From NCBI GenBank assembly GCA_004335835.1, contig RWJK01000906.1, positions 1-64,000 of the forward strand: DNA of 64,000 nucleotides. Direction: 5' to 3'. Shown in pieces: positions 61-63,887 of this stretch. This DNA is from Scenedesmus sp. ARA3. Lineage: Eukaryota > Chlorophyta > Chlorophyceae > Sphaeropleales > Scenedesmaceae. The translations under genes were made by a program, and so were the position numbers. Below the pieces are notes generated by a model. It searched no databases. It saw nothing but the letters and a program-made list of their open reading frames with translations, and was not told where the DNA came from. How positions within the stretch are numbered: position 1 is the stretch's first letter; each line of letters starts with the position of its first letter.

Positions 61-3000
61 GCGTACAGATCCCTGGTGGTGATGTGGCTGGCTTGGTGGA
101 AGAGGCAGACCCAGGCAGCCAGGTATGCCCTGCTGCAATCAAGTGTTTCCTTTTTTATCAGTGTTGTGTGGCTGACCCTGGACATGGGCAAAGTGCAGGC
201 AATAGGCATGCCGCAGCTGCTGCGGCAGCCTGCAGCAACAGGGATCAGTGCAGGGTGCTTACAGAACCAGCTGCCGTCCCAGTAGACAAGCTAGCACAGC
301 TTTGATGTGTTTTGCATATGCTGGTGCCGCTATGTGGCAGAATAATGCAGCTAAATGCGCAGGTGGCTGCGGCGGGTGCAGTCAGCATGCCAGCTGGTAC
401 ACACGGGCAGCATACGAAACGTCACCTTTGCTGCAACCAGCTGCTGCTGTTGCTGCTGCTGCTGCTGCCAACTGCTGCTCCTCAGTTCAAGCCGGGTGAC
501 CGTGTGTTTGGCTGCAACGGTAACCAGATCTTCTGGAGCACGTACGGTGAGGGGCAGGCCAGGTGGCACAGCAGCAGGGATTTTGCTGTCAGCAGTGCTT
601 CACCCACAGCGTTGCGTCGGCTGCAGAACCGCGACATCAAATACCTGTAGTTCAACTACAGTAGTTGTGTGTCGCACCTAGTTGCCTATACCTTCTCAAC
701 AACATCTTCTGCGCCCCCTCTGCTCTGCGGGCTGCTTCCTGGCACAAATTCTCATCTGCGCTCTTTCTCTTGCCGTCCACCCACTAAACATGTTGATGGT
801 CCAACTGCATGTTGTCTCACTGCCTCTGCACACATGTTTTGTGTCCTGCTGTGCTGTACTGTCCTGGCAGGCACATACGCTGAGTATGCAGTGGCGCACG
901 AAGACAGCGTGCTGCCCATCCCTGAGGGCTGGTCCTTCAACGAAGCAGCAGCAGTGCCCCTGGCAGCCATGACAGCCTGGCAGGTGACTACTGTTTGTGG
1001 CTAGAAAGGCCGCTTTACACTGCGCCCAGCACAAGCTGTTTGCTGGACAGACACCAAAGGGGCGCACAGCTGTTTGTTGGTGTGGCATTCGTGGTGACTT
1101 GGGTCAGTGTGCCTGCGCCGCCCCTGCTGACAGATCGTCGCTGCTCCTCAAGTTGTTGTCGCCGCCGCCGTCGCCGCTTTCGCCGCCGCTGCTGCTGCTG
1201 CTGCTGCTGCAGGCTATGCAGCCGTCCATGCCGCTGCAAGGCAAGCGTGTGCTGGTGCATGCTGGAGCAGGCGGCGTGGGCAGCTTCGCCATACAGGTGG
1301 GCGCTGCTGCTCTGCCCTCGACAACGTTCTTGTAGCATGCCTCAACAGCAGCCGGCTGCAACATCATCAGCATTGTCAAATGCCAAGCAATCTATCTGTG
1401 TGCGCAGCATTTATCACTACGGATGTGTTTGCCAGCACCTGCCTTTTTGCCGGAAGCAACCTCACACTGTGGTGCCTGCGCCTGCCGCCTATGCTGTCTG
1501 TGCTGTTTTTGCAACCATACTGTGCTGCCAGATTGCCAAGGCCCAGGGCGCATGGGTTGCCACCACCTGCAGCGGCAGGAATGCTGGCTTTGTGACTGAG
1601 ACCCTGGGAGCCGACCTGGCCATTGACTACACCAAGCAGAAGTGAGCCGGCAGCATGTGCAGCAAACTCTGGCAACCTCTGAGCTCAGCAACTGCCATGT
1701 GCCGCTTCGTTCACAACATGTGGTTGATGCTCTGAGCAGCACTTCTGTTTGCTGTATCAGCGCGAGTAGGATGTGCCTGTGCGGACTTCTGCCCTGCAGC
1801 AGCATTGCCCACGTGCTAAGGTCAGGCTGCCACCCAGGGTGGTCCCTGAACTTTTGGATGACTGCAACACGTCATGCATTGAGCACTCTTGTTTGTGTTG
1901 CCAACATGCCCTACTGGCACTGCTGCACCATGCTGTAGGCATCTAAATGTGTTGTACTGCACACACTGCGCTGCAGCCGTGCCTCAAGTTTGAGCACGCT
2001 ACCACAGGCCATATAACCGGGTGATGGACCTCACTGGCAGTAATGCAACATGAAAGATGGCGTTACATGCACTGTGGCGCCTCCGCCCCGCTGCACTGCA
2101 GGTTTGAGGACGCTACCCCAGAGCCTTTGACCTGATGGTGGACCTCATTGGAGGGATCTATGCGATAATTGAATATCACATGCACTGTGATATGACTGCA
2201 ATAGATGGATATCACATGCACTGTGACGCCTCTGTTCTGCTGCACCGCAGGTTTGAGGACGCTACCGCAGAGCCGTATGACCTGGTGGTGGACCTCATTG
2301 GAGGGGACTACGAGTGGCGCAGCCTGCCGCTGCTGAAGCGCAGCGGCCACTTTGCCAACATCCTCAACAGCGGCTTCTTGCACCAGTGAGCGAGCAGCAG
2401 CACTGCTTTGGCAGATGCACTGCCGGTGCAAGCTGTTCTGGACCAATGTCTGTGCTGCGGATCGTCCATCGGCGTTGCCCAGATATGTGCGACAGAGCAG
2501 CACACGGCACGTGCATTGCATTCTGTTCTGCTCTGTAACTGCCACTGTGCGCGGTGGTCTCGCTGCATTGATGCCTTGATGCACAACAGCTGACAGCGCA
2601 GCCATCAACTTGGCATCCAGATGCATGGCTGGGCCAATAGGCACGCCATCTCTGCACCAGACCAGCAACTTGCCTGCCTGCGCCTGCGCTGTGTGCTGCT
2701 GCTGTGCCGCACCACTGACTGGCAAGCTTTGTTCCTGGGGCTCATTCTAAAACGAGGCCAGATACAACGCTGACACGAGGTCATGTCTCACTGCCCTGGC
2801 AGGTACGGCCCTGTGAAGGGTCCTGCGCTGCTGACGTACTACACGGCGCGGGGCATGCTGCTGGGCGCCATCAGCGGCCCCCGCTACACCTTCACAATCA
2901 TGAAGCACCAGGCGCGGCACGGCCTGGCAGAGGTGGGCGCCTTTGCAATACATATCAGACATGTTACACCACATATTTGCAATACGTACTATACATATTA

Positions 3001-3415
3001 CACCACATATAGGGCCGTGGGTGAGGAGAGGAAGCTGGCAGCTGGCTGGGGTCTTATCCATGTGGAATGCTGCAAATTAGGGAGTGCTGCAGCTCACCTT
3101 TTGTAGTAGGCCACACAGACTGTGCTGTGTGACGTGCGTGTCAGCCTGCCAACAAGTTCAGCACAGCCAGCATGCTGCTGCTGCTGCTGCCCTCCTGTGC
3201 AATGCTGTGACCCGCTTTTGACCCTGGACACGCTTTGTTTCACTGCTGCTGCATCGTTTGCCTTGGCATTGCAGCTGGCTGAGCTCATGAAGGCAGGCAA
3301 GCTGAAGGTGACCATCCACGAGGTGCTGCCTCTCGCAGAGGCTGCCAAGGCACACGAGATATCAGAGACTGGCCGGGTGAGGGGCAAGCTGGTGCTGCAG
3401 GTGGCAAAGGAGTGA
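1..3415 (+). CDS. Quinone oxidoreductase / zinc-type alcohol dehydrogenase-like protein (MDR superfamily), 5'-truncated
   Basis: Eight exons are visible: 69-122, 486-519, 871-983, 1213-1296, 1532-1641, 2251-2385, 2803-2932 and 3275-3415 (TGA). All junctions are GT-AG and in phase, giving about 266 C-terminal residues; the start lies left of the window. The first exon opens with IPGGDVAGLVEEADPGS, followed by FKPGDRVFG and an EGWSFNEAAAVP segment, the usual N-terminal catalytic fold. The nucleotide-binding motif VLVHAGAGGVGSFAIQ (AxxGGVG) marks the Rossmann domain, followed by VDLIGGDYEWRSLPLLKRSG and a C-terminal HEVLPLAEAAKAHE helix. The order matches NADPH:quinone reductases and RTN4IP1-like proteins, which reduce quinones or enals with NADPH. 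No structural-zinc cysteine cluster is seen. The substrate cannot be deduced. Degenerate copies of exon 6 and of the last exon lie beside the real ones. Confidence 0.9.
1986..2170 (+). repeat. Two degenerate tandem copies of oxidoreductase exon 6 within the preceding intron
   Basis: The real exon 6 begins at 2251 with an acceptor followed by gtttgaggacgct. A near-identical copy with its own CAG acceptor begins at 2102, about 149 bp upstream. It includes the acatgcactgtg flank, but a one-base deletion shifts its frame to an early stop. A third, more decayed copy begins near 1988 (tttgagcacgctacc). Both copies lie inside the intron and appear non-functional. Confidence 0.85.
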
Positions 3416-3449
3416 CAGAGCAGCAGCTGCGGGTGGTGGAAGAGTGAGA

Positions 3450-3610
3450 GCAGCTGCTGGCAGAGGCTGCCAAGGTGCATGAGGTGTCTGTGACTGGCCG
3501 AGTGCGGGGCAAGCTGGTGCTGCAAGTGGCAAAGGAGTGAGCGCAAGGATGAGGGCAGCGCAGGGGGTAGAAGAATGAGAGGTGCTCAGGTGGCAAAGGA
3601 GTGACAGCAG
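3450..3610 (+). repeat. Tandem copies of the oxidoreductase terminal exon downstream of its stop
   Basis: The last 90 or so bases of the CDS, ending in the stop at 3413-3415, recur at about 3450-3540 with a TGA at 3538-3540, an offset of 125 bp. That copy would still encode AEAAKVHEVSVTGRVRGK and end at the same codon position. A third stub, tggcaaaggagtga, ends at 3604. They lie in the 3' UTR or flank and are not needed for the protein. Confidence 0.88.
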
Positions 3611-3996
3611 CTGCAGCTGCAGTTGGCACCGTTCTCTTGTGCCAAGACACACCGTCCAGGATGGGCAGGGTTGTCAGCATGCCCTTGATTGCATTGCAAA
3701 CAAACGAGATGAGAGTGCAGCTCAACTGGCTGGCATGACGGTGGGAGACATATGCATGATGAGATCTGCAGTGCAATATGTACGCTGCTGCCAGCATTTT
3801 TGCAGCGCATGAGTCGGTGCATACTAGTACTGGTTCCCAGGTTGCTGACTTCGTGTATGCGTTCCACAGCACAAGTTGTATGCATGGCTTACCAGGACTC
3901 CTCCAGGCGGTATGTTATCACGTCAACAGGCTGTGGTGGTGTGCAGCTTGTCATGGGCGCTGCCAACCACTGGCAGGTGCTGACTTATGTTGTTGC

Positions 3997-4001
3997 TGTA
4001 A
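3997..4001 (+). promoter_or_regulatory. Candidate TGTAA poly(A) signal for the oxidoreductase gene
   Basis: TGTAA is the typical green-algal polyadenylation element. This is the first one noticed after the stop, about 580 nt downstream. The distance is long and the assignment is tentative. Confidence 0.35.
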
Positions 4002-4974
4002 TTGCTGGCTGATGCTGTTGCTACAGTGCTTTCGTCGTGGTGTACGGCGGCTCATAGGTCTTGGCTTGTTGATTGCGCGCCTAGTAAGAGGTATGCTGGT
4101 GCTGTGGCTCTGTTCAGCAGAGTTAGTTACGTCAAGTCACGTTCTTTTACATACCGTTCCGTTACATGCTCCATTCAGCCAAGGAGTGTGATTGTAATGG
4201 CGCAACCCCCAACATGAAGCTTGCTCTATTGCCAGGCAAAGGTGCCACCTTGCTGGCCGCATGACCATATGCTGCCAGCATGAACTGTGCATGGCATGCA
4301 ACAGACATGAAGCTTCGACGTCTCAACGTCTTCAGTGTGACAACTATAGGTGCCATGTTAAGAGGCAGAACACCTTCCAACCTCCAGTGCCTCATTGTGC
4401 ATGGGATCACAAACAGCACTGGTACAACCTGTACTGCAACGAAGCTCAACACAGTCCAAAGTACTTGTGCAATGCCCACCACTGAATAATAAGCTTATTC
4501 CACCACCGCCTATGTAACCTTTCCTCTTTGACAACTTCTTTTATTTGACAACTTCTGATGTGAAACACGTTAATGTGAACACATTTCTGTAGTTATGGCA
4601 GCAAGCCGCCATGGACAGCTCGAAGACTCATCAAAGCATTCTGCCAGAAGCCCAAGGTTGTGAACTGGCCAGCCACGCCCCCCTGCTACAGAAGCACAGC
4701 ACCTGCACATGCAGCCAGCACACTGCGCAGGCAACACCCTAGTCTGATACAGCATTCAACGCACTTTCCGCCTCAATGCTTCACATCTCAACTGCAAAAC
4801 CCTTTGCAGGTTACCAACAGCAGCCCCAGGGACACTGCATCTCGCCACCTCAACCCATGACACAGCACAACCCCAACCGAAGAGTGCCTCAACCATCTCT
4901 GCCTTTAGCATCGCACAAGTCTGATTGCTGGCCTAGCCACCATGGTGACCACCCCTGCACTGCTCACTGTACAT

Positions 4975-5015
4975 TGCGCAGCAGCGCCTGACTCACTGGC
5001 TCTGCCAGCAGCTCG
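4975..5015 (-). repeat. Degenerate copy of the 3' end of the kinase gene
   Basis: The plus-strand block gcgcagcagcgcctg at 4976-4990, followed by tcactggctctgccagcagct, repeats the last codons of the kinase gene around 5201-5240, offset about 225 bp. It lies past the stop codon on the gene's strand, like the terminal-exon copies of the oxidoreductase gene. Confidence 0.7.
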
Positions 5016-5188
5016 CCAAACATTGGGGCATGCACCCGTCTAGTCCAGCCCAGCCACACCGCGTGCTGCAGGAGCACATCACTTGCAACCAGCACATCAC
5101 ACACAACAGCACCTCCGGGGGATTGGCCCCTCCAGCTTTTCTATGCTCCAACCCATCCTCAACCAGCCGTCCATTCCTCTGCACTGGC

Positions 5189-7125
5189 TCACTCCAGCTT
5201 GCGCAGCAGCGCCTGGATCACTGGCTCCGCCAGCAGCTGCTGCGCAGTCACACCCTTCAGCGCCTTGCGGCTACCAAGCACAGACTGCGCAGCAACAGGC
5301 GCCACAGGCTGCTCTGCCACTACCTGCGCTGCAGGGTCCAGCGCACACCCCTCAGCTGAAAACACATCTGAGGATGCTGCCAGCGCTGCTGCTGATGAGC
5401 CCAAGCCGGCATCCCTTCCAGAATGAGCTTTGCTGGCTGCATCAGGCGCATGCTGCTGCGGCGCGTCCAGCGGCTGCATTGCTGCTGCGGCCCGTGCCGG
5501 TGACACAGGTGTTGATGTTGTGGGTGCGAGGCGCGTGAACGCGACGCCAGACACTGAACTGCCGGAGGGAGTGCGGCGCAGCAGGTCAGCGCTCTTGCGC
5601 CCCATGGGCCACTGGCCAGGAGTAGCAGGGCCTGCTGCTGCTGCTGCTGCAGGAGAGCTGAATGCACTGCCTGGTGTTGTTTCAGACAGCTCCTGCAGCA
5701 CGACTGGCCGCACCATAGACTGGATAGATCCCTGCTGCTGCTGCTGCTGCTGCTGCAGGTTGGTGCCGGCTACCAAGCGGTTCACAGCTGCAGAAGTGCT
5801 GCTTGTGACAGCAGCAGGTGAAGCAGGCGCGCCTGCTGGCGCTGGCGCTGCTGCCTTTACCGCCTGCTGCTGCACCTGCGGCTTCTGCTGCACCTGCTGT
5901 CCTGCCACACCCTGCTGCTGTTGCTGCGTCGAGTGGTGCTGCTCCTGCAGCTGCAGCTGCCACAGCAGCTGCGCCCGCGGCACAAAGTGTGCGCGCAGGC
6001 GCTTGCTGTTGGTGCAGTGTTCCAGCACAGTCAGCAGCAGCGAGACCAGCTCGATGTCTTCTGAGGGCCATGTGATGTCATCCAGCAGCCGGCACAGCGC
6101 CTTGAGCACGCGGAACACATCACCCCGGCGGTGCCAGTACCTGCGGCAAGAGCAGGCAGAGGGAAAGGGAGAGGACAAGTGCGGCAGCGGCGCGGCGAGA
6201 GCAGCGCAGTGTTGATGCCAGCAGTGCCTGGTGATGAGGCAGCGAGCAAGCTACACTGCACGTGAGGCACGGCTGGTGGTGTGCAGCACTCACATGGTAC
6301 TTGTTGCTGGTGGGCAGGAGGGCGTGGCTGAGGACGCAGAAACCTCAGACGCGCACAGTAAATATGCAGCTGGTCGGCACATGCACAGAGCATAGCAGCA
6401 GGCTGCCTGAACATTCGCTGCATCACCGCGCTAACCACAAGCACATGTCGCATGCAGCGCAACGCATCATCCCTTACCATGATATTGTTAGATACATGCC
6501 CCGGCTGTGTTCACCGCCCCCACTCACATGTGGTAGATGCGCACGCAGAAGTAGGGCTCGCTGTATTCAAACTGCGACTCATCAGCCGAGTGCGTGACCA
6601 CGCCAGGCTTGCCAGAGTTGCCGTAGCGCCTCTCGCGCTTGAGCTGCTCTGCTGCCTCTGGCCGCTGGTCCTCGGTTTGCGTCAAGTGGCGCGCGTCCGG
6701 CACATCCTTGACACTGAAGGGGTCTGGCAGCGGAGAGAGATTTGAGAGGAGCAAAGGCAGGAAGTGTTTTGAGGCAAGCACGTGTGTGACAATACTCCAA
6801 ACGACAGTCATTTGGGGCAGCATGCCGGCAGCAATGTTGACTACATGTCTGCAGCCAGGGCAAATGTGTTCAACCAACTAACCCCTCCAGTACATCTCTG
6901 AAAATAGCTGTAGCAATTGTTATCATACATCATGCCCTTAGCTAACTTTGGAACTAGCGTTGCAGTTCGGCGTTGCGTGTGTGCTTGCTGCGCACCTGGG
7001 TAGATGACTGCCGTGCCAAAGTCGAACAGCTTGAACTGCGGCACCGCGTCCAGCAGCACACGCCGCTTGGCCTCCTCTGGGTTGTCAGCGCATGACCAGT
7101 GCTCCATGATGTTGTCCAGCCTGGC

Positions 7126-7171
<46 letters not shown>

Positions 7172-7963: not shown

Positions 7964-8011
<48 letters not shown>

Positions 8012-9757: not shown

Positions 9758-11774
9758 TCAGGATATCTGAGGAGACAGCAGGCGCCTGCTCCAGTGGAGC
9801 TGCTGGACTGCAGCACAAAGCAAGGAAACTGTTGACACAGTAGGCTCATACTCTTGGTATGTATAGCAGGGTCTGCACTGTTCTGCCTTGGCTCTCTGTG
9901 TTTCTGACTGCTGATGCGCATGTCTCACAATAGCACCACGCGCAACCTGCTGTGGTTTCAGCTGCTGAGCGGCGCTCACCTGCCACCACCCACAGCGCTG
10001 CACCAGCTGTCACCACCATCGCACCCACAGCACGCCAGTAGCTGAGGCACAAGTGCGCCATGCTGCTGCAAAAGAACCAGCTGCTGACAAAGCTGACCAC
10101 GCTGGCTCGAACAGCATTGACTAGCCCCACAGCCATCGCCCCTTGGCTGCTGAGTAGCTGCACCTGCAGCAGCTGGTGTGCTGCTGTTATGACGCCATAT
10201 AACACATGGCTGCCTGCAATGCTAGCTGCACTGTGAGAGGATGCCGCCACTGGCTGCAGTACTGCTGGGCCCAAGTTTGGCAGTGTATAGTACAGCTGGT
10301 GTGCCAGTGCTGCTACCAGGCTCACGCCTGTGACTGCTGCTGAGGCCTGCAAGGGGGGCAGACAGCACGGCAGCAGACAGCAAGGCAGCAGCATTCTTGG
10401 ATGACAGCTGGCAGCGTCTAAGGTGTTGAGGCAGCAGCCAATTACCAATTAACAACAGCACAGCACCAGCATGATTGTGCAGTGGCAGCACAAGCTGCTG
10501 GAGCACCCCGCTGGCAGGATCATACACACATCAATGCCCTTCAGTGGTAACACATACACATACACACACAGAGTCAAGACCAACATACAGAGTCAAGGCA
10601 ATGCTGTGGCTGCCACATTGCTGTAGTCTCCTTGGTGCACTGAGAGCGCGTGCATACAGACGTTTGACAGCAGCTGCGCACCTGTGCTTGCGTCACGCTG
10701 TGGGTCTGGTCATGTCAAGGCAATGCTGTGGCTGCCACATTACTGCAATGTCCTTGATGCACCAAGAGAGCGTGCATACAGACTTTTGATACCAGCTGCG
10801 CACCTGTGCTTGCGTCACGCTGTGGGTCTGGTCAGCGCTCATGAGCACTTCATACATGACGCCCAGGACACTGAACAGCAGCGCAGACAGCGCCACGCAC
10901 CCCACACCAAACATGGTGCCGCTGTCCACGCCACCTGCTGCACTGCTGCTGCTGCCAGCTGCTGCCGCTGCTGCCTTGGCGCCGCTGAACATGCTTGCTA
11001 TGCTGCTCAAGTCCAAGTCGTCTGCTGAGCGCAGCACCAGCCCTAGCGTTACTATTGTAACGGCTGCAAAGTGCTTGCGTGACAGCTGCCGGTGCAACAG
11101 TGCCACACTCAGGACCGCGCTGCTTATCTGCCCGGTGGCAGCCAACACCACTGCTGCTAGGGCCGATCCAGCTGCTGCGTAGCCAATGTTGAAGATTGCA
11201 TAGGATGCTAAATCCAGCAAGCCCATGATCAACAGTATCAGCTTGACTTTCATCAGCACTGCTGCTCGGCTGGCGGCGCATTGCTGCTTTTGCTGTGACG
11301 CATCTTGCGCAGCTGCGCTAGTGCTGGTGCTGGTGCTGCTTGCTTTGCTATGGTGGTGCACTGCCTGGCTCTCTCTGACGCAGTTGGCTGCTGAGAGCGC
11401 AAAGGCAAAGACGTATCGCATCAGCACCAGCAGCTGTGCTTTGGGGTCTATGGCAGCCTGCGTGCACAAACACATAGCTTATACATATCAATCCCTATAT
11501 TTCATTGCATGCCGGTGTTCAGCAGTACAGTGCTGAGCCTGCCAGCACGTGATTTCACCCTGCTGTATGACTGGCTCGCATCTGCTGCGCTGACCTGCAT
11601 GTTGATGTACTGGCCCAGCACCATCAGTGTTGTGCCTGTGCACAGTAGCCCCAACGGCTGAAGCGACCAGCTTCCGGCGTTACGGTTATCTGCCGGCGTC
11701 TGCAATGCTTGATCGTCATCAACCTGCTGTGCTTGTCCTGTGTGCTGCTGCTGCTTCCGGTGCCGGACCGACAT
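9758..11774 (-). CDS. DMT-superfamily transporter, nucleotide-sugar transporter type (SLC35-like)
   Basis: Exons 11774-11595, 11457-10804 and 10346-9980 are clear. The C-terminus is uncertain: splicing at the GTGAGC after 9980 joins in phase to a 16-codon exon 9807-9758, while unspliced reading ends at 9846. The product is about 415-445 aa, with roughly ten hydrophobic segments such as LILLIMGLLDLASYAIFNIGY and a Gly/Ala-rich TM containing AATGQISSAVLSVALLHRQ. Paired helices with a GQ/R-rich junction are typical of the EamA/NST fold of Golgi or plastid antiporters. A Ser/Thr/Ala-rich loop follows the second hydrophobic segment and another lies in mid-protein. Substrate is unassigned. An in-frame upstream ATG at 11894 is possible; 11774 is preferred because it is closer to the hydrophobic core and leaves room for a promoter shared with the divergent GNAT gene. 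Confidence 0.78.
10592..10835 (-). repeat. 122-bp tandem duplication spanning the transporter exon 2 donor
   Basis: Two copies, 10592-10713 and 10714-10835, start with gtcaaggcaatgctgtggc. The right copy contains the real exon 2 end and its donor at 10804/10803. The left copy keeps the same exon end and a GT donor at 10682/10681, now inside the intron. Confidence 0.9.
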
Positions 11775-13697: not shown

Positions 13698-16669
13698 ATG
13701 AGCAATGGAAGCCTTGCGGGTTTTGACTCGTTGGAAAAAGTGCTAGAGGTGTGTATGGTCGCAGGATTTAGGGACGAACACGGCCAATTTCCGATGTTTG
13801 CAGCAAGAGCAGTTCCTCCACGTGCACCAGTACTTGCTGTCTCCGATGTGTATTAAACTAACCTGGTTCTCGCTGCTGCTATCTGGCCTTGTTACATCTT
13901 GTTGTAGGAGTACATCCCTGCTGACAAGCTTGCAGAAGTGAAGCGTGTGCTGTATGGTGCCAACCTGAGCAAGCCAGTGGCAGCGCTTGAACTGCCAGAG
14001 GCCCTGCAGAAAGTGGCAGAGGAGCAGGCGTTTGATCTCCAGGCCTACAAGTTTGGAGCAGCAGCAGAGCAGTTCCGTGCACCCAGGATTGTGAAGATTG
14101 GTCTCATCCAGAATGCTGTGGTTGAGCCCACAACAGCACCCTTTGCAGAGCAGCGCCAGGTGGGCAGGGCGACACACATAGCAACCATGCACACGCTGCA
14201 GGCACATGAATCGTGCTTCTCTGACAGCAGGCAAGGAGCACAGCATGCCTCGCATGCTGACATGATAGTTGCAGAGATAGCAGCACCGTACTAGCCAGCA
14301 GCAGGCATAGTGAGCTTGAGACTGGTGGTTGACATTGCTCAGTGTTACTGTGGTGCTGCTGGTACAGCCCAGCTCTCACTTCAGCGCTGCATCATTGCAT
14401 GCTGCTTGCAGGGGATTTACAGCCGCGTGTCACAGCTGATTGAGGCAGCTGGCCAGGCAGGCGTCAAGATTCTGTGCTTGCAGGAAGCATGGTGAGCGAG
14501 GATGCAGTGCTTCATTGGGTCCTTGCCAGGTTGGGTCCTTGCCAGGTCGCCAGCTGCTGCTGCATCAGCAGCAGCAGCAGCAGCAGCAGCATGGCCCTCC
14601 CAACACGTGACACAGCAGCATTTTCACACCATCAGCTGTGCTCAAGACTGTTTGGACGGCGTATCACCCTCCTTTACTCAGGTGTGCATAAGCACAAGCA
14701 TGTGCCACTGCTCACCGCATGCCAATCAGCAGCTGCAGGCAGCTTCACCACCCCAGCCCTCAGAAACGCATTTGTGAGCGGCCGCGCTATGCCAGTATCC
14801 CTGCGCCTGCCGTGACGCGCTCCTGCCCTGCAGGACCATGCCGTTTGCCTTCTGCACACGGGAGAAGCACTGGAACGCATTTGCAGAGTCAGCAGAGGCA
14901 GGCCCCACCACGCAGCTGCTGCAGGGCTATGCGCGGCAGTACAGCATGGTCATCATCAGCCCCATTCTAGAGCGGGATGAGGCCCATGGGGAGACCATCT
15001 GGAACACTGCTGTGGTGATCGGCAACAACGGCAATGTGATCGGCAAGCACAGAAAGGTGAGGAGCAGCATTGCATGTGCTGCAGGCGCGCTGTGTAGCAT
15101 GCAGCTGGAAGGGCGGCGCAGCTGCGGCAGCAGCTCCTTGCACGGGCAACGTGGCTGTGCACAAAGCAGTACAGCTGTCTGCATCTCTTACTTGTGCATT
15201 TGTTCGTCATGCTGCTGCTGGGGCTGGCTGCCGTATGCGCTGCCGCTGCTCCCCCTCCCACACATCTTCCCCTGTGGCCATGCCTGGGCTCTGTCAAACC
15301 ACCATCACCTCAGAACCACATCCCGCGCGTGGGCGACTTCAATGAGAGCACCTACTACCTGGAGGGCAACACGGGCCACCCCGTGTTTGAAACAGCCTAT
15401 GGCAAGATCGCCATCAACATCTGCTACGGCCGCCACCACCCCATGAACTGGCAGGTGGGGATGCGCGGCACAGGTGGCCAGCTTGAATGGTGTTGAAAGC
15501 AGCAGCCGGCGGCCGAACTTGTTGCTCCAGTGATGGGGCAGCAGCTGCAAGCCAAGGAGTGCTGTGCACACTGCGTGACACACAATAGCGCGCGACAGTG
15601 CTGCTGCCCCTTCCATCCCTGCCACTCCTACTCCCTGTGCTGTGCCTGTGCAGGCCTTTGGCATGAATGGCGCAGAGATCGTGTTCAACCCCTCAGCCAC
15701 AGTTGGGGAGCTGAGCGAGCCGATGTGGGGCATTGAGGCGCGCAACGCAGCCATCGCCAACAGCTACTTTGTGGCTGCCATCAACCGCGTGGGCACAGAG
15801 GTCTTCCCCAATGAATTCAGCTCAGCAGATGGCAAGCCCGCACACAAGGTGGGTGGGTGTGTCAGCGGGGGTGCAGATCAGCGTCGTCTGGCATTAGCGT
15901 CAATTTGCAAATGTCCAGGCAACACACTGTGGCAGCTGCTGCGCAGAGCTGCTCTGCCGAACAAAACCTGGTGAAGGTTGAACCAAAAGGGCACCCTAGC
16001 GCAGCACGTGACTGATGTTGTGCTGCTGCGGCGCTGCTGTACCTCTGCAGGACTTTGGCCACTTTTATGGCAGCAGCTATGTGGCTGCGCCCGATGCCAG
16101 CCGCACGCCCAGCCTGTCTCGCTGCAGGGACGGCCTGATGGTGGCTGAGCTGGACCTGAACCTGTGCAGACAGGTGGGAAAGGTGGCCGGGTGGCACGTG
16201 TGTTGCATTGGCACTGTTTGTGTGGAGGCTGCTGCTCTTGGTGTGGCTGCCAGCAGCAGAACTTGCTGGTGGTGGTGCTGCTGCTGAGGGTGTTGTGCCA
16301 GCGCTGCTGCTGCGAATGGTTGCAGACGTTGCTGTGTTATGTGCTGTTGTGGTGGACAGTGTAGCGTTGGGAGGAGGACACATCAGCAGCACTTTCAACC
16401 TTCGAGTTCAATTACGCAGGCCTGGTGAAGATGGCTCACCCTTGGCGTTGATGTTGAAGAGTTGTCCTGATGCGTCTCTGCCTGCGATTGTGCGAATGCT
16501 GCTGCCCGTGTTGCTGCTGCTGCTGCCCGCGCTGCCGGCGCTGCCGCAGGTCAAGGACAAGTGGGACTTCCGGCTGACGGCGCGCTACGAGCTGTACGCG
16601 GACTTCTTCAGCCGCTACATTCAGCACGACTTCAAGCCGCAGCTGGTGAAGGACCCGTCGCTGCAGTGA
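13698..16669 (+). CDS. UPB1: Beta-ureidopropionase (N-carbamoyl-beta-alanine amidohydrolase)
   Basis: Eight phase-consistent exons: 13698-13748, 13908-14159, 14412-14491, 14834-15056, 15314-15454, 15654-15848, 16051-16173 and 16550-16669 (TGA), 394 aa, the normal length for the family. It catalyses the last step of reductive pyrimidine breakdown, hydrolysing N-carbamoyl-beta-alanine to beta-alanine, CO2 and ammonia. The nitrilase-superfamily triad is present: Glu about 126 in LCLQEAW, Lys about 199 in GKHRK and Cys about 239 in [10 protein letters not shown]. The N-terminal helix with EVKRVLYG is also family-specific, as are the [26 protein letters not shown] and [10 protein letters not shown] segments. 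No targeting peptide is obvious, so it is probably cytosolic. The last codons and stop merge directly into a 23-bp minisatellite. Confidence 0.96.
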
Positions 16670-16915
16670 ACCTTGCGCAGCTGCAGCAGTGAAGCCTGCG
16701 CAGCTGCAGCAGTGAAGCCTGCGCAGCTGCAGCAGTGAAGCTTGCGCAGCTGCAGCAGTGACGCTTGCGCAGCTGCAGCAGTGACGCTTGCGCAGCTGCA
16801 GCAGTGAAGCCTGCACAGCTGCAGCAGTGAAGCCTGCACAGCTGCAGCAGTGAAGCCTGCACAGCTGCAGCAGTGAAGCCTGCACAGCTGCAGCAGTGAA
16901 GCTTGCGCAGCTGCA
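16668..16915 (+). repeat. 23-bp minisatellite, about 11 units, starting at the beta-ureidopropionase stop codon
   Basis: Units begin every 23 bp from 16668 (16691, 16714, 16737 and so on) with consensus gaagcctgcgcagctgcagc plus agt. Subvariants alternate cct/ctt, gcg/aca and gaa/gac in blocks. Each unit repeats the CDS terminus CTGCAG...TGA. Because 23 is not a multiple of three and the unit lacks reverse stops, a spurious minus-strand ORF runs through it. Confidence 0.95.
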
Positions 16916-48900: not shown

Positions 48901-50708
48901 GTGAGTGCAGCCGCAGCACGGGGCTGGTGGGAGGTTGCACGGCGTGTGTAGTGTTATGTTGTCATCCTGTGGCGCTGCTGCCGTTGGCTGGGATCTTGCC
49001 CAGAGGTGGTTCTTTCATTAGTTCTAGCAATGCACCATACGGTATTGAATGGCATGCCAGTTTGCACAGCTGTTGGTGCTGCCCTGCATCCATGATGTGT
49101 GCATCTGCGTGCATGTCTCTGTCATAACAGCTGCCGCACTCACTCTGGCCCACACCCTTTGCACCCGCACCCTTACTGCGCTGCCACCACACGCACACCA
49201 GGTGCTGCAGAAGTGGGGCCTGCTGCTGGCGTCAGCGCTGCTCTCAGAAGAGTCCATCCGCCAGCGAGCGCTGCCGCAGCAGCTGATACAGCCGCTGGTG
49301 ACTGGCGCAGTCGAGACGGTGCAGCTGCTGGAGGGGCTGGGTGCGCTGGCTACAGCAATTCTTGCCAGGTGGGTGTGGCTGGCGTGCATTGCAAGTTGTG
49401 TGTGGTTGCGTTTTTCGTGTGTATCAGCTCGAGAGGCAGTGACGCTGCAGCAGGGGCTGGGTGCGCTGGCTACAGCGATTCTTGCCAGGTTGGTGCAGCT
49501 GGCGTGCGGCTGGCGTGCAATGCGAGTTGTGTGTGTTTGCGCGTTTGTGTGTATCAGGCTGGCGAGGCAGTGACACTGCAGGAGGGGCTGGGCGCGCTGG
49601 CTACAGCGATCCTTGCCAGGTGGGTACGACTGGCGTGCATTGAGTGCTGTTGTTGTGTTGTGTTTGCGCGTTCGTGTGTATTAGGCTGGCGAGGCAGTGA
49701 CGCTGCTGGAGGGGCTGGGTGCGCTGGCTACAGCGATCCTTGCTAGGTGGGTGGGGCTGCATTTGGGGCTGCATTGATGCTGATGTTTGGCTGTTTGCGC
49801 GCAGCCGTGTGGTTTGGCGGGTGATTGGCTGTCGGAATTCGGCAGATGAGGTAGCTGTACGGTTGGGCTGACAGCAAGCGCGTGGCTGGATGCAGCTGCA
49901 AAGGAAGCTGATTGGTTAGGTGGCAGCAACCGCGCAGCAAAGAGCCCTGCACAGGAAGCCGCATCTCGTGTGCGGTTACTTTCGCTGCTTATGTGCCAAC
50001 ATATGTGCTGCGTCTGCTGGTGTGTTGTTCCCCTGCCCGCGCGGCTCGTGCGACTGCAGGACCGAGTGCGACCTGACCCAGCCTGGGCCTGACCGCACAT
50101 TTGTGCACAAGGCGTTGAGCATCGCCAGCCTGCTGCAGCAGGTGCTGCAGCAGCAGCGCGAGCTGAACGGCGGCCGCATGCAGCCGCAGCTGGCGTCCAT
50201 CTTTGGCAGCGATGGCACCCACAGCGACCTGAAGGCGGCGTTGGAGGTGGGTGCAGGCTGGTGGTGTGTATTGCAATCTTGAAAAGAATATGCAGATGTG
50301 TGCTTGGTGGTGGCTTTCGCGACTCATGCGGTTGGCCGCAGCGATGTTAGTCCGCACCCCTTTCTGCTGTTGTGTTCTGTCTTGCTCATGTACCAGTATT
50401 GCTGACAGTGAGGTTAGATTACACATGCATGCAGGCCACATGTAACCCAGCAGTTTACATGTGTTAAGCAAGGTAGCGTAGCAGTAGGTAAACGACACAC
50501 CTTGAACGATTGTTGTGTGTATGCTACTTGGGTGCTGCAGGAGTTCTCAATGCAGGAAGAGTGGGAGGAAGCAGCAGAGCAAGCACGGGCAATCCTGGCC
50601 ACGCTTGGCAGCACAGCGGGTGCAAGCGATGCCGCAGAGCAGGATGAGGAAGGCAGGGAGGGTGGCGAGGCACTGCAGGGGGCTGAGGTAGAGATGCAGG
50701 ATGCCTGA
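38070..50708 (+). CDS. FAS1: Chromatin assembly factor 1 large subunit (FAS1/CHAF1A) with novel C-terminal ARM-like extension
   Basis: Twenty-three in-phase exons, about 2006 aa: 38070-38264, 38433-39032, 39340-39462, 39720-39972, 40296-40429, 40693-40911, 41100-41168, 41389-41529, 41787-41972, 42266-42451, 42609-42798, 43117-43303, 43639-43741, 44175-44307, 44719-44877, 45192-46930, 47258-47368, 47661-48146, 48404-48543, 48756-48900, 49202-49368, 50060-50246, 50541-50708. Diagnostic FAS1 features are a long Lys/Glu/Arg (KER) coiled coil (exons 8-9), KLIKHHDSVRPAFYGSMS, and the acidic core LDYEVMSDQDWEEEPEGE followed by GFVVGDGYLSDDEG. The FPDVLLSALVAHIQ...KYTVKPEFL domain follows. CAF-1 deposits H3-H4 behind replication forks with PCNA. 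PIP-like boxes are MKIDKFF, QAAFRNFF and GGIERFF. Normal FAS1 would end near residue 1280; here about 470 helical residues (exons 17-23) follow a Gln/Ala linker. Exons 12, 13 and 15 have extra tandem copies. Confidence 0.9.
38662..38713 (+). repeat. Coding (CAG)n tract: polyglutamine in FAS1 exon 2
   Basis: About 17 consecutive CAG codons encode Gln between DDPA and AYHEQD. Unlike the intronic tracts, the sense strand reads CAG and the run is translated. It is expected to be length-polymorphic. Confidence 0.9.
42979..43075 (+). repeat. Upstream tandem copy of FAS1 exon 12
   Basis: A CAG acceptor at 42979-42981 is followed by gcctgccgcccagctgggcg, matching the real exon 12 start at 43117, offset 135 bp. 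The copy also encodes FVTNTATALY, then diverges before the KLIKHHD block. Both acceptors have the right phase, so alternative use is possible, but only the downstream copy leads on to the conserved domain. Confidence 0.9.
43542..43615 (+). repeat. Upstream tandem copy of FAS1 exon 13 start
   Basis: Preceded by the same CTG-rich tract and gccgcag acceptor, it encodes the block PLGTKPELDCEVM, offset 94 bp from the real PLGTEPELDYEVM at 43639 onward. It then runs into the next CTG tract. It lacks the acidic WEEEPEGE continuation. Confidence 0.9.
43730..43912 (+). repeat. Tandem copy of the FAS1 exon 13 donor region
   Basis: The exon 13 end and donor (gagagcctctcggtgcgtgt, from about 43730) plus 40 bp of G-rich intron recur 122 bp downstream, from 43852 (gagagcctctccgtgcgtgt). 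The second donor is intact. Confidence 0.88.
43989..44040 (+). repeat. 10-bp tandem repeat (gtatgctaat)n
   Basis: Five units of gtatgct(a/g)a(t/c) lie in the intron before FAS1 exon 14. Function unknown; probably simple slippage. Confidence 0.9.
44431..44800 (+). repeat. Three tandem copies (155-159 bp) around the start of FAS1 exon 15
   Basis: The block ggcggcagcagc...ggcgcagcttgaggctggg occurs at 44431, 44586 and 44745. Each of the first two is followed by a CTG-rich tract. Only the third continues the open frame into LEAGLERARQRGRPLLLVNN. The first two copies are followed by aaacacac and stops. Confidence 0.92.
49327..49748 (+). repeat. Four-copy array of the FAS1 exon 21 end plus donor
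   Basis: The block ggggctgggtgcgctggcta through cttgccag|gtgggt starts at 49333, 49453, 49584 and 49711 (spacings 120, 131, 127). The first is the real exon end (49368). Each later copy preserves the coding block GLGALATAI(L)AR, a GT donor and an upstream acg/aca ctg cag-like acceptor. Copies 3 and 4 share an extra ggctggcgaggcagtga flank. Confidence 0.95.
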
Positions 50709-52725
50709 TGCCCGTCGTGTGGATACGCTAGCGGCAGCAGCATGTGGGAGAGCGGGTTGTTGCGCAACCTATGCAGCAGCTGCACGGCGCGCCGTGAGGG
50801 GACCCGCTTGGACCTCCTGGCATGCAAAGTGGGCCTTCCTGCATGCAAAGCTCAACTGCCTCAGGCACTTGGAGGATGGCTGTGCTCCGCTGGTGTGGTG
50901 CATAGGATGCAGCGAGAAAGTTTTTTGGGTTGGTCGCGGCAGAGTAGCAGGCATGTTCCTATGTACAGTCACCTTTTCTGTTGCAGTCTAGGAGCGTTGG
51001 TTGGATGAGTGCACAAGCATGTGCTTTGTTTGCTGGTGCCTGGTGCCGGCAGTGCTCAGGCTGTAACAGCTGTTCTGAGCTGATGCAACGATGTCACTAC
51101 TGGATGGTTACGACCATTGAATACTGATGAATAGCCACACATCTCACGTCACCAGTTACTTGCTACAAACTTACGGGCACCACAAGTGCAAAGGAGGGCT
51201 ACTGTACCTGGCTCGTATACTGCTCGCCATATGCAGATGCATCTGCATGCTGTGGACAAAGCCACAGCGACTGTTGCCTGACACTGGCAATGTCGTTGGG
51301 GCGCAAACCAGTCCGCAAGTCAACCTCTGCAACCTCCTCACTTGTGCGCTTGCCGTGTAGCCAAGCAGTGTCTCCCTTCATAACAGAGTGCTGCAGATAC
51401 AAGCCAATGTTCGGCAGCAATTCTGACCCCTGGCCACCTGTTCACAGCAGCTTGTTGTAATTGTAAAGCAAGTAGCCAGCGCACGTCGTCTCAGGTAACA
51501 AACACAAATGGCATCAGGCCAGCCTCGCCATAGTCATTCACATACATACGAAATGTGACTGCTGTTCTTCGTACTAGTGTCACCCCTTTGCCGGCAGTGC
51601 AGTACGCCATCAAAACACAGTGTCTGCTTTTGCTGGGCTCTCTGCATCATGCCTGCAGTGTGCAGGCATTGCCTGATCAGTGCTCGATGCGTGCCGCCAG
51701 CATCCAAAGGTAAACCAAGGTGCAGTGCAGGAGGTATGAGGTATGATCGATCAATGACATCGCCAGTGCGCATAATGCAGTTCCCAGCTGTTGCAGCCAT
51801 CCAACAAAGCACAGGCATGCTGTGCACAACGCATCAAAAGTCAAACCAACTCTAGATTTAACAGTACAAATATCCATGAAATGCTGGCATCTTGTCAACA
51901 TGGTTGGCAGTGCCAAGCGCCGTAGCCGACAGCCTTTTGCAGTCCAGCGCAACCCTCACAGGTTGAACATTTGGCAGTGTATCACACAGCCCTGAGGAAA
52001 CCCTCATGAGCTGAATGACTGCCAGTGACACAGTGTGTTGTAGTTGCACACCGTAGTCTTTGTTCCACAAAACAGCACTGACTTGCATGCTTGTAAACGC
52101 CAACATTCAGTGCATGCAGCACAGCAAACCACAAGTCGACAAGCCCTGCGATGCGACACAAGTATTGCGATGCAACACAAGTAGGCATGCATACCAACGT
52201 CCAACCAGGATCAGGCTGAGTGGACCTTGCACAGCAGATTGCAGCACCCTGATGCGCAATTCTTGTCTAGACATACACGCTCAGCAAGTACATCACACAA
52301 GTTGAACAAGTATGCCCATTCCACATGCAATGAACAGCTTCCTCCACCGCAAAACTAACCAGCAGGCCACTGGCTGCCAGCACCATGGCACGGACAATTT
52401 GCAAATGCTGCCTACATAGCATCGCATCTTCCACGCAACAGACAGCATCACCAACTGCACACAGAATGCAGCACACCAAGCAGCCGCCATTGACATGCCG
52501 CCTTCTATCACGCCAAAGCAACTTTGACAACAGCGGGCAGCTTCAGCAGCCACTCTGCGCAGCCACGTGGCTACACAGCATGCACTCACATCTCATCCTC
52601 AAGACACAGCCGCCGGGTTGGGGTTGAGTAACAACCTAAACCCAACCCTCAGCCCTAAAACCTTGGCACAGCCACGTGGCTACACAGCATGCACTCACAC
52701 CTCATCCTCAAGACGCAGCCGCCGC
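50709..52725. other. Convergent 3' region of FAS1 (+) and the lactone oxidase gene (-)
   Basis: About 2 kb with no recognised gene. TGTAA signals on the + strand lie at 51062-51066, 51456-51460 and 51462-51466. A duplicated block adjoins the oxidase stop (52559-52735). Confidence 0.5.
51062..51066 (+). promoter_or_regulatory. Candidate TGTAA poly(A) signal of FAS1
   Basis: TGTAA lies 354 nt past the FAS1 stop. Two more copies at 51456 and 51462 are alternative candidates for a longer 3' UTR. Confidence 0.5.
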
Positions 52726-55745: not shown

Positions 55746-58135
55746 ATGATGGGGCAACTTAACCCACCACTGCTGCACACATTACTAGCGGCATGCTGCT
55801 GTTCACTCGCTACAGGATGGCTCATAGGTGACCAATCTGTTATATGCTACCAGGGAGACCGTCAGCAGCAGCGAGCAGCAGCAGCAACAGCTGCAACAAC
55901 AGCAAGCAGCAGCAGCAGCAGCAGAAGCAGCAGAAGCAGCAGAAGCAGCAGAAGCAGCAGAACCAGCACCAGCACCAGCACCATAAAGTGACCTGCGCGT
56001 TGTTGAACACATGTGCCATTATGTGCATGCCATTGAGTGTTGCCATGATTTACACCTCCACAAAGAACTGATGCTCCCATGTGGCTGTGATGGAGTCAAG
56101 CCCGTGCATGTGCTGCACACTCAAGATTCTGCATGTACTGCATATCAGCGAGTGTTTAGGGCACCATGGCAACTGTCAGCTCTCATTTGATGCCTCCACT
56201 GCTTGCTGTGCAGGCATATGGGGTGGCATCACCGCCATGCCATCTTTTACAGCACAGATCTTCCCCACACACCACACTCGCAGCAGCAGCAACAGCCAAG
56301 CTGCCACACACGCTTCATACTACTGCATGTACAACGATCAGATCCTCTCCCTCAGCGGCAGCATCATCTACCTCTCAGCGCTGCCAGCTTTGGCACTTGC
56401 AGCCCGCACCACCCACAAGTATGGCCGCAAGCCGACTATGTGGGGCATCGCAGTGCTGCTGGTGGCTGGGGCGGCTCTCGGCGCAGCAGCACAGAACTTG
56501 GCGGCTGTGTTTGCTTCTAGGGCCTTGATGGGCATGGCAATGGGCTGCAGGTGAGGTGCTGCGCATGCTGCTGTAGCAAGCAGCAACAGCAGCAGCAGCA
56601 GCGGCGGCGGCAGCGGCGGGCACGTGAACAGCATGCAGAAAGCAGCATGTGCACACTGGCATAGGTAACAACGGCTGCAAGAAAGTCCCTGCTCCTCCTG
56701 TGCATGCCTTGTATGTTGCCAAATGTAAGCTTGTTGGCTCAGTTTCCACTCCAAACTGAAGCTCGTACACCTGCATGTGCAGAACAGCCGCAGCTGCAGT
56801 GCCTTCACTGCCTCCATAATTCAATATGTGAGCCCCCCCCCTCCACCTCTCCGCTCACCTTTGTCCTAACGCCACACCCCCCACCTCACACCGGACCTCT
56901 GCTCCTGCAGCTTCCAGGCCCCAACCATGCTGCTCTGCGAAGTGCTGCCGCGCCACCGCCGCGGCCTCGGCATGTATTTCTACAACATCGCACTCTCATT
57001 AGGCTTCCTGCTATCAGGCCTGGCCAACATGCTGCTGCAGCAGCCTGCCTGGGGCTGGCGGGCCAGTGTGGCGCTGCTGGCAGCACCCGGGCTGCTGCTG
57101 GCTGGCCTGCTGCCGAGCATCTCGGAGAGCCCGCAGGTGCTGCTGCAGCACGGCAAGGACGCAGCTGCAGCGCAGGTGCGGGTCTTGCTGCTGGTGGCAG
57201 TGCGAGGGAAAGAGGGAAGCTTGTACTGGATGTTGCAAACGAGCCGCGCGCAATGTGGAGATGTGGACTTGCAGGCAGTCCATCTGCAGTGCTCAGGATG
57301 AAAACAGAACTCTGCACTTGTCGCAGGCATTGTGTGAACCAGCTTCCTCAATTCTCCAAGTGTTGGGATGCTTCGGCGGTATGCTGGCAGCAGCACAGGA
57401 AGCACTCGTGCCTCCTCTGCACTCACCTGTATCAACAATCTGCTTTGCCTGCAGCTGCTGGAGCGCATCCGGCCCAAGGGTAGCGACACATCAGCTGAGC
57501 TAGCACAAATGCGCGCCGCAGCCGCACGCGCCGCAGCCGCTGGCAGGACAGCGCAGCGCCTCACTTCTTTGGTGAAGCACCACCAGCCGGAGCTTGTGGC
57601 CTCACTGCTGTGGCCGCTGGTGCTGATGCTGACTGGGCTGAATGTGCTGAGCACATGGACGCCTAATTTGTTGATGGCGCTGGGCGCTGCGCCGGCGTTT
57701 GCGCTGCGCAGCAACACCGTGATGATGGCTGTGGGGCTGGCTGCTGCGCTGCTGGGTAAGCGTCTGTGTGTGAGTGTTGGGGGAGTGCTAAGTATTGCAG
57801 TAGCTGTTCGTGCAGTGCAAGCTTTGTCTGCAGCAACACTGTGATGATGGCTGTTCGGCTGGCTGCTGCGCTGCTAGGTGAGGTTTTGTGTTTTGGAGTA
57901 TGGTGGTGGTTCACAGATATGGCAGACATTGCACTCTGGAGTTGGGGATGCCTTGCTGCTGCAAGGTTTGTGCAGTGACTCAACAGCTCCCGGACGAGGT
58001 GCTTGCATGTTTAACGTTGCATACACATCTGTAAAACTGTCTTTTCCCAGCAAGAAAGCAAGCAAGAAAGCAAGCAAGCAACGCCACGTGTACTCTGGTA
58101 GAGATGCCGACGCTGCCTGCCTCTCACACCACTGC

Positions 58136-58175
<40 letters not shown>

Positions 58176-61782: not shown

Positions 61783-63887
61783 TCACCAGTCCAGCCTATC
61801 AAGACGCAGCAGCTTGTGCTCTGCTGTTGCCACCTGACGCTCCCCAGACAGCCGAGCATACACCACAGGGCACTCCCCATTCTCACACACAATGCTGCCT
61901 AGCTGGTCACCAGAGTGACAGCTCCTGCACGCTGACTGTGCATTGCAAACCTTGGACGCTGCTTCTGAAGCCTCCTGGGTCACTGCGATCAGCACAGCCT
62001 TCCTCGTGTCATCTTCTGCGATGCAACGATCGCACAGGCCAGGATCTACCTGGTCCTGCTGCTGCTGATGCTGGTTGCTGGAGGCTGCTGCTGCTGCAGA
62101 GGGCTTTGTGTGGATGACAGCCTTGCAGCTGAGGCAGCGCGCAGACTGCTGGAAGAATGCACGCATGCCAAAGCCAGCACCTCCCTTCTTCCTGCCTGGC
62201 GACAGCGCAGCACCTGCAGCTGCTGCAGCCTTGCCCCTACCCCTGCTGCTGCTGCTGCCACCCCTGCCGCCACCCCTGCCCCTCCTGCCCCTGCCTCCTC
62301 TGCCCGCAGAGCCTGTAGCAGCCGGTTCAGCTTGAGCGCCGCCTAACTCCTGCTGCTGGGTTGGCGGCGCGCCCAGGTCTCCTGCTGTTGTGGTGCTGGC
62401 CCTGAACTTTGTGTGGTCGCCGTGCAGCAGCTGCCGCATCTGCTCAGGGTTGAGGCAGGTGCTGAAGATCTCCTTCAGGGGGATCTGCAGGACACGGTGT
62501 TGAATACCGCATCAGGATACACAACAGTATCAACTGACACCGCATTACAAAGAAGGCCGCACTAGGTTCACAGCACTGCATTCTACATATGTGTAGCAGA
62601 TGCTGCTGCTGCATTTGGTGCTGCAGCCCTGTGCTTTTCAGCAAAATGTTTTCTATGCAGCTCCGCACAGCACTGCGCAGCGCATCAAGCTGCTGCACAG
62701 CACTTTGCACACACAGTTACACACCTGCAGCTTGTTGGTGAAGTACAGCTTGAAGTTGAGCTTTTGCATAACTGATCCACCCAAAACGCACACACCACAC
62801 CACCAGCTGCTACACATACAAACATACCTGCAGCTTGTTGGTGAAGTAGAGCTCATAGTTGGGGCTCACACCCAGCTGTGCTGCTGTCAGGGGATCTTCT
62901 GCAGCCTCATCCTGCGTACGCGCACCTGCAGGGAGGCGGCAGCAGCTACACATGTGGGTGTGACGTTCTGTGGCCCTGGGAGTAGTTCAAGATGGCTCGA
63001 CAGTGACAAAGGAGTATTGCAGCAGTGCAACATGCGGCAGCAGGCTCCCATGCTACACCACGCTTGTTGGAGATCCGCAAGGTGCCCCATGCAGCGGTGT
63101 ATCAGTAGCATTTCAAACACTGCTGCTGCCTCATGTTAACAGCCACAGCTCTCCTGTATGGTGCTTGCTGTCACCATCCACCACTGCATTCATGCTACAG
63201 CCAGCCGGCTTAAAATTAAATTGTTACGTAACAAATACGGTCTACCTGTCAGCAGCACGTAGGGCAGCCGCTCCCCCAGCAGCCACTTCTTGTCAGGGTC
63301 ACGCTGACTCAGCCGCACAGCCAGCGAGGCGTGCGGGCCCTTCACATCCTCGTCACCGCCACCAGCAGCAGCAGCAGCAGCGCCGCCGCCGCTGCCGGCT
63401 GCGTTGCCACTGCCGGCAGCGTCTGCAACAAGCAGCACAGGTGGGAGCAAAGTGTGGGTGGGGCTTGGGCAGGGCAGTTGGCAAATATGCACGGCTACGC
63501 AGGTCAACACCGTTGGCACCAACACAACGTCTGCTAACAGACAAAACGATAAGGGCGGACGTTATGCTTAACGCACAGATCCTTAGATATCGTCAGCCAC
63601 TGTGGCTTGCGGGGGCGCAAGCTTCCGACCACAAGTGCTGCAGCGTCCTGCACGCGCTCATCCAAGCCACTGCCGGGCACACTTCATATGCTCAGCTGCT
63701 GCTGCTGCTGCTCACCTGCTGCTGCCGCCGCCTTCTCCAGCTGCTGCCCCGTGACCCTCCACAGCCCGCCAGTCATGACACACTCCCACAGCTCAACGCG
63801 GCCCGACAGCAGCCGCGCGATCTGGCCCTCTACAAACCTCACGGCGCCAGGCACGTCACGCTGCATCAGGATGTGCTGAAGCGCACC
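61783..63887 (-). CDS. POLD1: DNA polymerase delta catalytic subunit, C-terminal part (5' end beyond window)
   Basis: Four minus-strand exons are seen: 63887-63716, 63422-63246, 62925-62828 and 62484-61783 (TGA), in phase; upstream exons lie past 64000. Diagnostic features are LMQRDVPGAVRFVEGQIARL (thumb/palm end), then WLLGERLPYVLLTG and EDPLTAAQLGVSPNYELYF before IPLKEIFSTCL and LLHGDHTKF. The metal-binding tail follows: CysA C-L-S-C ... C-D-R-C, and CysB CRSCHSGDQLGSIVCENGEC followed by PVVY, the 4Fe-4S site for POLD2/3 binding in other eukaryotes. The enzyme is the lagging-strand replicative polymerase, nuclear. Between LLHGDHTKF and CysA sits an extra Arg/Gly-rich segment of about 65 residues including SAGRGGRGRRGRGGGRGG. 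An Ala/Gly-rich insert also lies in the exon starting at 63422. One exon end is duplicated (62725-62770). Confidence 0.93.
62725..62770 (-). repeat. Tandem copy of the POLD1 exon ending YELYFTNKLQ
   Basis: On the minus strand, a copy encoding FKLYFTNKLQ with a GTGTGT donor lies 103 bp downstream of the real exon end (62828, donor GTATGT), within the next intron. Its upstream part diverges into aaagctcaac. Confidence 0.88.

Follow-up and report, generated by a model that had tools for sequence, protein, structure and literature searches.

Short direct repeats recur in the genes of one stretch of DNA from the green alga Scenedesmus sp. ARA3, the first 64,000 bases of contig 626 (RWJK01000906.1; 75,465 bases) in a genome of 87.3 Mb and 1,567 contigs; this stretch is called the window here. 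When the window was compared with itself by BLAST, with matches consisting mostly of CAG/CTG excluded, 19 direct matches were found at a distance between copies (lag) of 50–500 bp and none at 500–2000 bp (at least 50 bits), a clear excess of local direct repeats over chance. The same comparison yielded no inverted matches within 2 kb at that threshold. A sequence-only reading of the window had noticed repeats in or beside nine named genes, and all nine were recovered: eight carry local direct repeats and the ninth, the beta-ureidopropionase gene, carries a minisatellite. The repeats, with their window coordinates and strand, are as follows.

1982..2305, plus strand: quinone oxidoreductase acceptor and exon start, three tandem copies (self-BLAST, Tetradesmus obliquus protein)
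3332..3626, plus strand: end of the last oxidoreductase exon with stop codon, lag 125 (self-BLAST)
4952..5238, minus strand: end, with stop codon, of the gene that the sequence-only reading named a kinase (self-BLAST)
10592..10834, minus strand: EamA-like (DMT) transporter, full-unit duplication, lag 122, 90.9% identity (self-BLAST)
16663..16917, plus strand: 23-bp minisatellite, 11 copies, at the end of the beta-ureidopropionase (CN_hydrolase) gene
28178..28357, plus strand: F-box gene acceptor and exon start, two copies, lag 110 (self-BLAST)
36361..36712, no strand: near-perfect tandem duplication, 97.8% identity, lag 173, no predicted exon nearby (self-BLAST)
42978..43195, plus strand: CAF-1 large subunit ('FAS1') acceptor and exon start, two copies, lag 135
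43519..43696, plus strand: CAF-1 acceptor and exon start, two copies, lag 94
43720..43937, plus strand: CAF-1 exon end and donor region, two copies, lag 122
44430..44791, plus strand: CAF-1 exon segment with flanking noncoding DNA, three copies, lag 155–159
49312..49801, plus strand: CAF-1 exon end and donor (GTGGGT or GTTGGT), four copies, spacing about 120–130
52557..52724, minus strand: segment following the lactone oxidase stop codon, two copies, 95% identity, lag 109 (self-BLAST)
57708..57891, plus strand: sugar porter exon end and donor, two copies, lag 122 (self-BLAST)
62719..62861, minus strand: POLD1 exon end (LYFTNKLQ) and donor, two copies, lag 103 (self-BLAST)

In the oxidoreductase gene, the real exon starts at 2251 and the upstream copies sit in the intron, the one at 2099 having a one-base deletion and a stop. 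At the other end of the gene, the real copy runs to 3415 and is followed by a second copy (3457–3540) and a fragment of a third (3581–3626). The published T. obliquus protein uses one copy only. The window's oxidoreductase exons were 95–100% identical to that protein (OEZ85_006797), alignment ends excepted, with the first exons largely beyond the window; on the strength of this match, the genome can be assigned to T. obliquus or a very close strain. Relatives of the oxidoreductase carry domains of the zinc-type dehydrogenase kind. The real copy of the kinase gene end lies at 5176–5238, with another 224 bp downstream, and each ends in an in-frame TGA; the protein had no Pfam match. The transporter unit comprises an exon end, its donor and about 90 bp of intron.

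Pfam backed the CN_hydrolase, F-box, CAF1A dimerisation, sugar transporter and DNA polymerase B genes, the lactone oxidase matched a FAD-binding domain, and the EamA match of the transporter stayed below the cutoff. A search with the FAS1 protein returned four matches, with T. obliquus not among their names. Read by eye, the two CAF-1 copies at 42978–43195 differ mainly at synonymous positions. The beta-ureidopropionase minisatellite is a different class of repeat from the other duplications. Contrary to what had been stated before, not all copies straddle functional boundaries: of the 14 loci in the window, two fall outside the coding spans predicted, one (36361–36712) near no predicted exon and the other (52557–52724) starting 2 bp beyond the lactone oxidase stop codon. 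The latter contains a 50-bp spacer (52616–52665) with a presumed likeness to telomere repeats (CCCTAAAA-like), as though it had been inserted when a break was repaired.

We extended the analysis to 24 further stretches (217,164 bases), picked non-randomly via contig number, giving 281,164 bases in total. BLAST self-matches of at least 40 bits defined 58 local duplication loci, 14 in the window and 44 elsewhere. Identity of the best pairs ranged from 68% to 100%, pointing to many ages and bearing out the earlier description of tandem, splice-site-bearing copies that grade from near-identical to faint. The smallest lag per locus had a median of 124 (interquartile range 113–139); 40 of the 58 fell at 100–139 bp and two at 60–90 bp. 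BLAST loses near-diagonal matches at short lags, so short-lag counts were taken from ungapped scans. An ungapped 40-mer scan, free of this blind spot, was used as a second lag scan and detected 42 loci: eight below 60 bp, none at 60–90, 27 at 90–160 and seven longer. There is thus a sharp size class at about 120 bp, which the sequence-only reading had overlooked. Some of the longer lags are multiples, as in an ALB3-like gene (L020), where some seven copies occur at lags of 117/118 and 235 bp. As in short segmental tandem duplication, the copies are direct, adjacent and local, and their excess is limited to short lags. The duplications are, in short, direct, local, tandem, about 120 bp long, of many ages and mainly genic.

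Two loci outside the window are also of note. The last coding segment of a signal recognition particle (SRP) receptor beta gene (named by Pfam; L015:3961–4985) recurs beyond the stop codon in about five decaying copies; several of them are spaced about 125 bp apart, and the copy at 4641 has an internal stop. At L019:1840–2310, an acceptor and exon start occur four times at a lag of about 140, every copy adjoining a CTG repeat, which suggests that CTG/CAG repeats can be used as short homology at duplication junctions.

The placement of the duplications was assessed on ab initio gene models (80 genes, 35% coding sequence), on which all placement statistics rest and whose gene finder is prone to calling copied edges as exons or micro-exons. 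A first training of the finder drifted into over-splicing and was discarded in favour of later models. Compared with the T. obliquus oxidoreductase protein, the models gave several exons exactly and added or shifted others. Duplicated spans included a coding edge at 45 of 58 loci, versus 39.7 ± 3.2 under random placement (P 0.03–0.10 over two gene penalties and two runs). The edge excess was clearer for single copies (31 and 38 of 58 versus about 23) and absent from the 12 youngest full-unit loci, nine of which crossed an edge versus 9.0 expected. In the 94–160 bp class, which was defined post hoc after the data had been seen, an edge was crossed at 38 of 47 loci versus about 31.5 expected (P 0.021), and exon-only loci (4/47) were as frequent as expected (4.1–4.2).

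We also asked how often 32-mers of different kinds have a local copy, defined as at least 24 matching positions at a distance of 35–400 bp. Removal of low-complexity windows left 411 of 508 donors, 332 of 508 acceptors, 657 of 1,026 exon middles, 432 of 511 intron middles and 511 of 569 intergenic windows. Copies were found for 32 donors, 23 acceptors, 22 exon middles, 12 intron middles and eight intergenic windows. A far-lag control, which did not include the intergenic class, gave one acceptor and no donors, exon middles or intron middles. Exon middles are therefore copied too, less than edges, and the earlier statement that no copies of them exist does not stand. In a block bootstrap (58 blocks of 5 kb), edges exceeded exon middles 2.21-fold over all lags (1.24–5.07) and 6.90-fold at lags of 90–160 (2.90–55.5). 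Over all lags, they exceeded intron middles 2.66-fold (1.56–6.69) and intergenic windows 4.73-fold (lower bound 1.82), the latter ratio being higher at 90–160. A per-locus comparison (edges versus introns after decay, P 0.07; intergenic shortage, P 0.008) was dropped as unfair because exon and intergenic windows 60 bp apart merge into fewer loci, and was replaced by the block bootstrap and the size-class placement test.

Pure search bias, under which introns are so dense that every span of 240 bp would hit an exon edge, was suspected in part by the sequence-only reading itself. That suspicion was justified, as intron density alone yields 39.7 of 58 edge spans against the 45 observed, and the young set shows the same (9/12 versus 9.0). 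As the full account, however, search bias is very improbable, given the bootstrap ratios, larger still at 90–160, and the edge crossings of the 94–160 bp class. The excess of duplicates at boundaries over random placement, which the same reading had proposed to count, thus holds per 32-mer, is slight for whole spans and is missing from the youngest loci.

To see what random duplication would leave behind, we simulated randomly placed duplications, discarding those inside exons and letting noncoding sequence decay faster. The simulation predicted ratios to intron middles of 1.34–1.48 for edges, 0.6–0.69 for exon middles and 0.95–0.97 for intergenic windows. The observed ratios were 2.5–2.8, 1.21 and 0.56 over all lags, and 3.7–3.9, 0.55 and 0.14 at lags of 90–160. 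Part of the edge excess is therefore, under this model, expected as the residue of random duplication, selection and decay. The remainder is unexplained, and the habit of the gene finder noted above could inflate it up to about twofold by our own estimate.

The state of the copies was examined in 52 exon-edge pairs (29 donor and 23 acceptor). Intronic similarity exceeded the 95% level of random pairs in 33 of the 52, so whole DNA units crossing an edge were duplicated. The exon parts contained 113 differences, distributed over codon positions 1, 2 and 3 as 36, 16 and 61; 59 were synonymous and two produced stops. Simulated expectations for synonymous differences among 113 were 31.6 with both copies dead, 46.8 with one live and 89.9 with both live. 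One live and one decaying copy was mainly the best fit. The donor GT was changed at one of 58 positions versus 51 of 174 at positions +3 to +8 (P 1e-6), and the acceptor AG at four of 46, which resembles the exon rate and indicates no better retention. Splice-motif donors showed a mild excess in copies (41 of 58 loci versus 34.3) and splice-motif acceptors none (45 of 58 versus 48.3). A mismatch-phase test on the best pairs was weak (largest phase 276 versus 261 expected). The lag was divisible by 3 at four of four exon-only and nine of 45 edge-crossing loci, a comparison biased by the gene finder's preference for open frames.

Some copies consist of a conserved exon part on either side of an unlike spacer (A-x-A'). 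We do not claim these as insertions with long target duplications or as functional alternative exons, because a lag of about 120 is kept despite variation in the conserved part, intronic similarity is retained in 33 of the 52 pairs and the synonymous share does not differ between the two groups of pairs.

Taken together, the feature is real and genome-wide, and it is a variant of gene-structure change driven by tandem duplication. We consider it probable that local tandem duplication of about 120 bp (mostly 94–160 bp, plus multiples) recurs chiefly in genes, is filtered by selection and lengthens introns. A preferred unit of that length would duplicate in tandem again and again, mostly inside genes. 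Duplications lying wholly within an exon would usually be purged by selection, and those crossing an edge would be tolerated because one copy stays joined to the exon body and works. The other copy would land in an intron or a 3' region and decay. The outcome would be longer introns, ghost exon edges and spare splice sites, which would occasionally provide the substrate for splice-site shifts, alternative exons or new introns. It is likely that introns grow as a result and that spare splice sites are supplied continually. At the DNA level, the cause could be staggered breaks that are filled in and joined, or slippage during replication, between which the data do not separate; neither accounts for the length of 120 bp. 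Patch-mediated repair in rice is reportedly a parallel for small tandem duplications.

Several results weigh against recurrent duplication filtered by selection, some of them concerning placement. Only one of the 47 loci in the 94–160 bp class was intergenic, versus 6.3–6.8 expected (P 0.003–0.005), and intronic loci were near expectation (four versus 4.6–5.0), a pattern that a gene-blind process does not predict. The sole intergenic locus begins 2 bp after a stop codon; across all 58 loci, the intergenic shortage was not significant (P 0.07–0.23). At lags of 90–160, edges exceeded intron middles 3.78-fold (2.08–10.5), with P 0.0003 for a ratio as low as 1.46. Edges may therefore really be favoured, unless the gene finder inflates their count, and that so few loci of the size class are intergenic is a second unexplained point. 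Such figures could come from mutation coupled to transcription or splicing that copies segments of about 120 bp preferentially at splice junctions and hardly between genes. We regard this reading as unlikely, and targeting of edges is not treated as demonstrated in view of the possible gene-finder inflation. If it were true, the genome would keep making spare edges, which splicing could try out as alternative sites or new introns.

Other such results concern constraint. The 59 synonymous differences exceed the one-live expectation (46.8 ± 4.9, P 0.003), and retention of the donor GT, set against the exon rate of 9.8%, is borderline (P 0.053); given this surplus and the retained GT, some copies, donor copies especially, may still be usable. 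These are also grounds for viewing the copies mainly as functional alternative exons or edges under selection, whether mutually exclusive or alternative splice sites, as are the scarcity of changes at second codon positions (16/113) and pairs whose differences are nearly all synonymous (42978/43113; L004 3398/3551). Yet synonymous differences are far fewer than the 89.9 expected with both copies live, a frameshift or stop is present in certain copies (2099; L015 4641), multiples of 3 are not overrepresented among edge-crossing lags (9/45), and pairs without intronic similarity do not have a larger synonymous share than the others (26/21 versus 33/33, P 0.70). Full coding constraint on both copies, as in mutually exclusive exons, was not found overall, and single loci could qualify; as a general account, functional alternatives seem unlikely.

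We next considered whether the duplications give birth to introns. After a precise AG|GT birth, an intron's donor and acceptor would occupy corresponding positions in the two copies, making intron length equal to the lag. None of 499 testable introns (619 predicted) had this arrangement at offset 0 with at least 18 of 26 matches, the top two reaching 16. Similar donor and acceptor flanks (score of at least 40) were found for 15 of 570 ab initio introns versus 0.7 expected. At least three of the 15 are CAG repeats or the minisatellite, and the rest are mostly micro-exons called by the finder at duplications; those that are not simple repeats could be candidates for imprecise births of the type described in potato.

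Two host introns were compared with relatives. Reading through the donor of the T. obliquus oxidoreductase (AA|GTGA) gives a lysine and then a stop, and the transcript-derived protein P0019 of another alga (81% identical oxidoreductase) terminates exactly at that junction, as an unspliced intron would give; the host intron thus appears to be common to this relative. For the ALB3-like gene, two metagenome open reading frames (95% identity) continue past the same junction into unrelated sequence, which indicates a shared host intron here as well. Judged from these sequences, both introns exist in relatives, with or without the copies. This leans against the idea that introns with copies are lineage-specific, for two introns and close algae only.

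Active making of new introns by tandem duplication, with duplicated splice sites used at once to give new introns or micro-exons, would account for the excess of similar flanks and the donor GT retained in both copies, and it has the geometry of the potato case, in which a duplication crosses an intron–exon edge. The absence of the precise AG|GT repeat, the simple repeats among the 15 flanked introns, all of which come from a finder prone to calling copied edges, the single copy used in the T. obliquus oxidoreductase and the sharing of two host introns with relatives make it unlikely. Of the earlier proposal that duplication creates introns or shifts their edges, the second half survives: shifted or expanded edges are a fair description, and no AG|GT birth was seen. 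New-intron formation is possible, the duplications being raw material for splice sites and not proof of introns.

We compared the feature with known systems. In the potato RdRp gene, a tandem duplication over an intron–exon boundary was described together with a detected new intron (PMC4974935). The likeness lies in duplications that cross such a boundary and carry splice signals (here in 33 of 52 pairs on ab initio models); potato is a single case with a new intron, whereas this alga has dozens of loci and a narrow unit length, with a new intron not demonstrated. The AGGT tandem-duplication model likewise involves gene segments with splice-like motifs duplicated in tandem, but differs in its precise AG|GT arrangement, seen in 0 of 499 predicted introns here. 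In Drosophila, tandem duplication is likewise reported to alter intron positions, novel positions being attributed to intron sliding or tandem duplication (PMC2891723). In mouse cells, induced breaks with 43-bp overhangs gave small tandem duplications via fill-in and end joining (PMC8355091); these resemble ours in being short, direct and tandem, and neither a 120-bp mode nor a genic bias appears in the passages compared. Tandem exon duplications and mutually exclusive exons share the copying in tandem of an exon with its splice sites (PMC6071210, PMC9013439), but in the present case edge-crossing lags lack enrichment for multiples of 3 and copies mostly decay.

Introners also tie a repeated sequence to introns in an alga (PMC9860276), but they are dispersed. 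Of four units searched against the genome, three matched their own place alone (the transporter, CAF-1 49312–49801 and 36361–36712 units), although an absent match does not prove rarity, so the same sequence across many introns was not found for these window units. The fourth (L020:9338) is noncoding and occurs in six places on two contigs. It is a 95-bp element arranged in tandem at a spacing of about 200–310 (L020:9338–9994 and G000:C350:102266–102775; six matches, 83–100%) and is possibly a small RNA cluster; an Rfam search of the window, L020 and L022 found no family.

It has long been asked how introns and exon edges change, and few natural examples in progress are available; among the matches listed in the open-access literature none described the size class of about 120 bp or duplicated exon edges in Scenedesmaceae. 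The sample holds about one duplication per 5 kb, which extrapolates to about 18,000 genome-wide if the sample is typical. A single species thereby offers an age-graded series of duplications, and the tight range of their unit length gives a quantitative hint of how the mutations arise. Genomes of further strains together with RNA could allow the step from duplication to splicing to be measured directly.

One further repeat in the window lies well beyond the tandem class: positions 17687–17802 and 19954–20063 form a direct repeat of about 115 bp (79% identity) with copies 2.27 kb apart.

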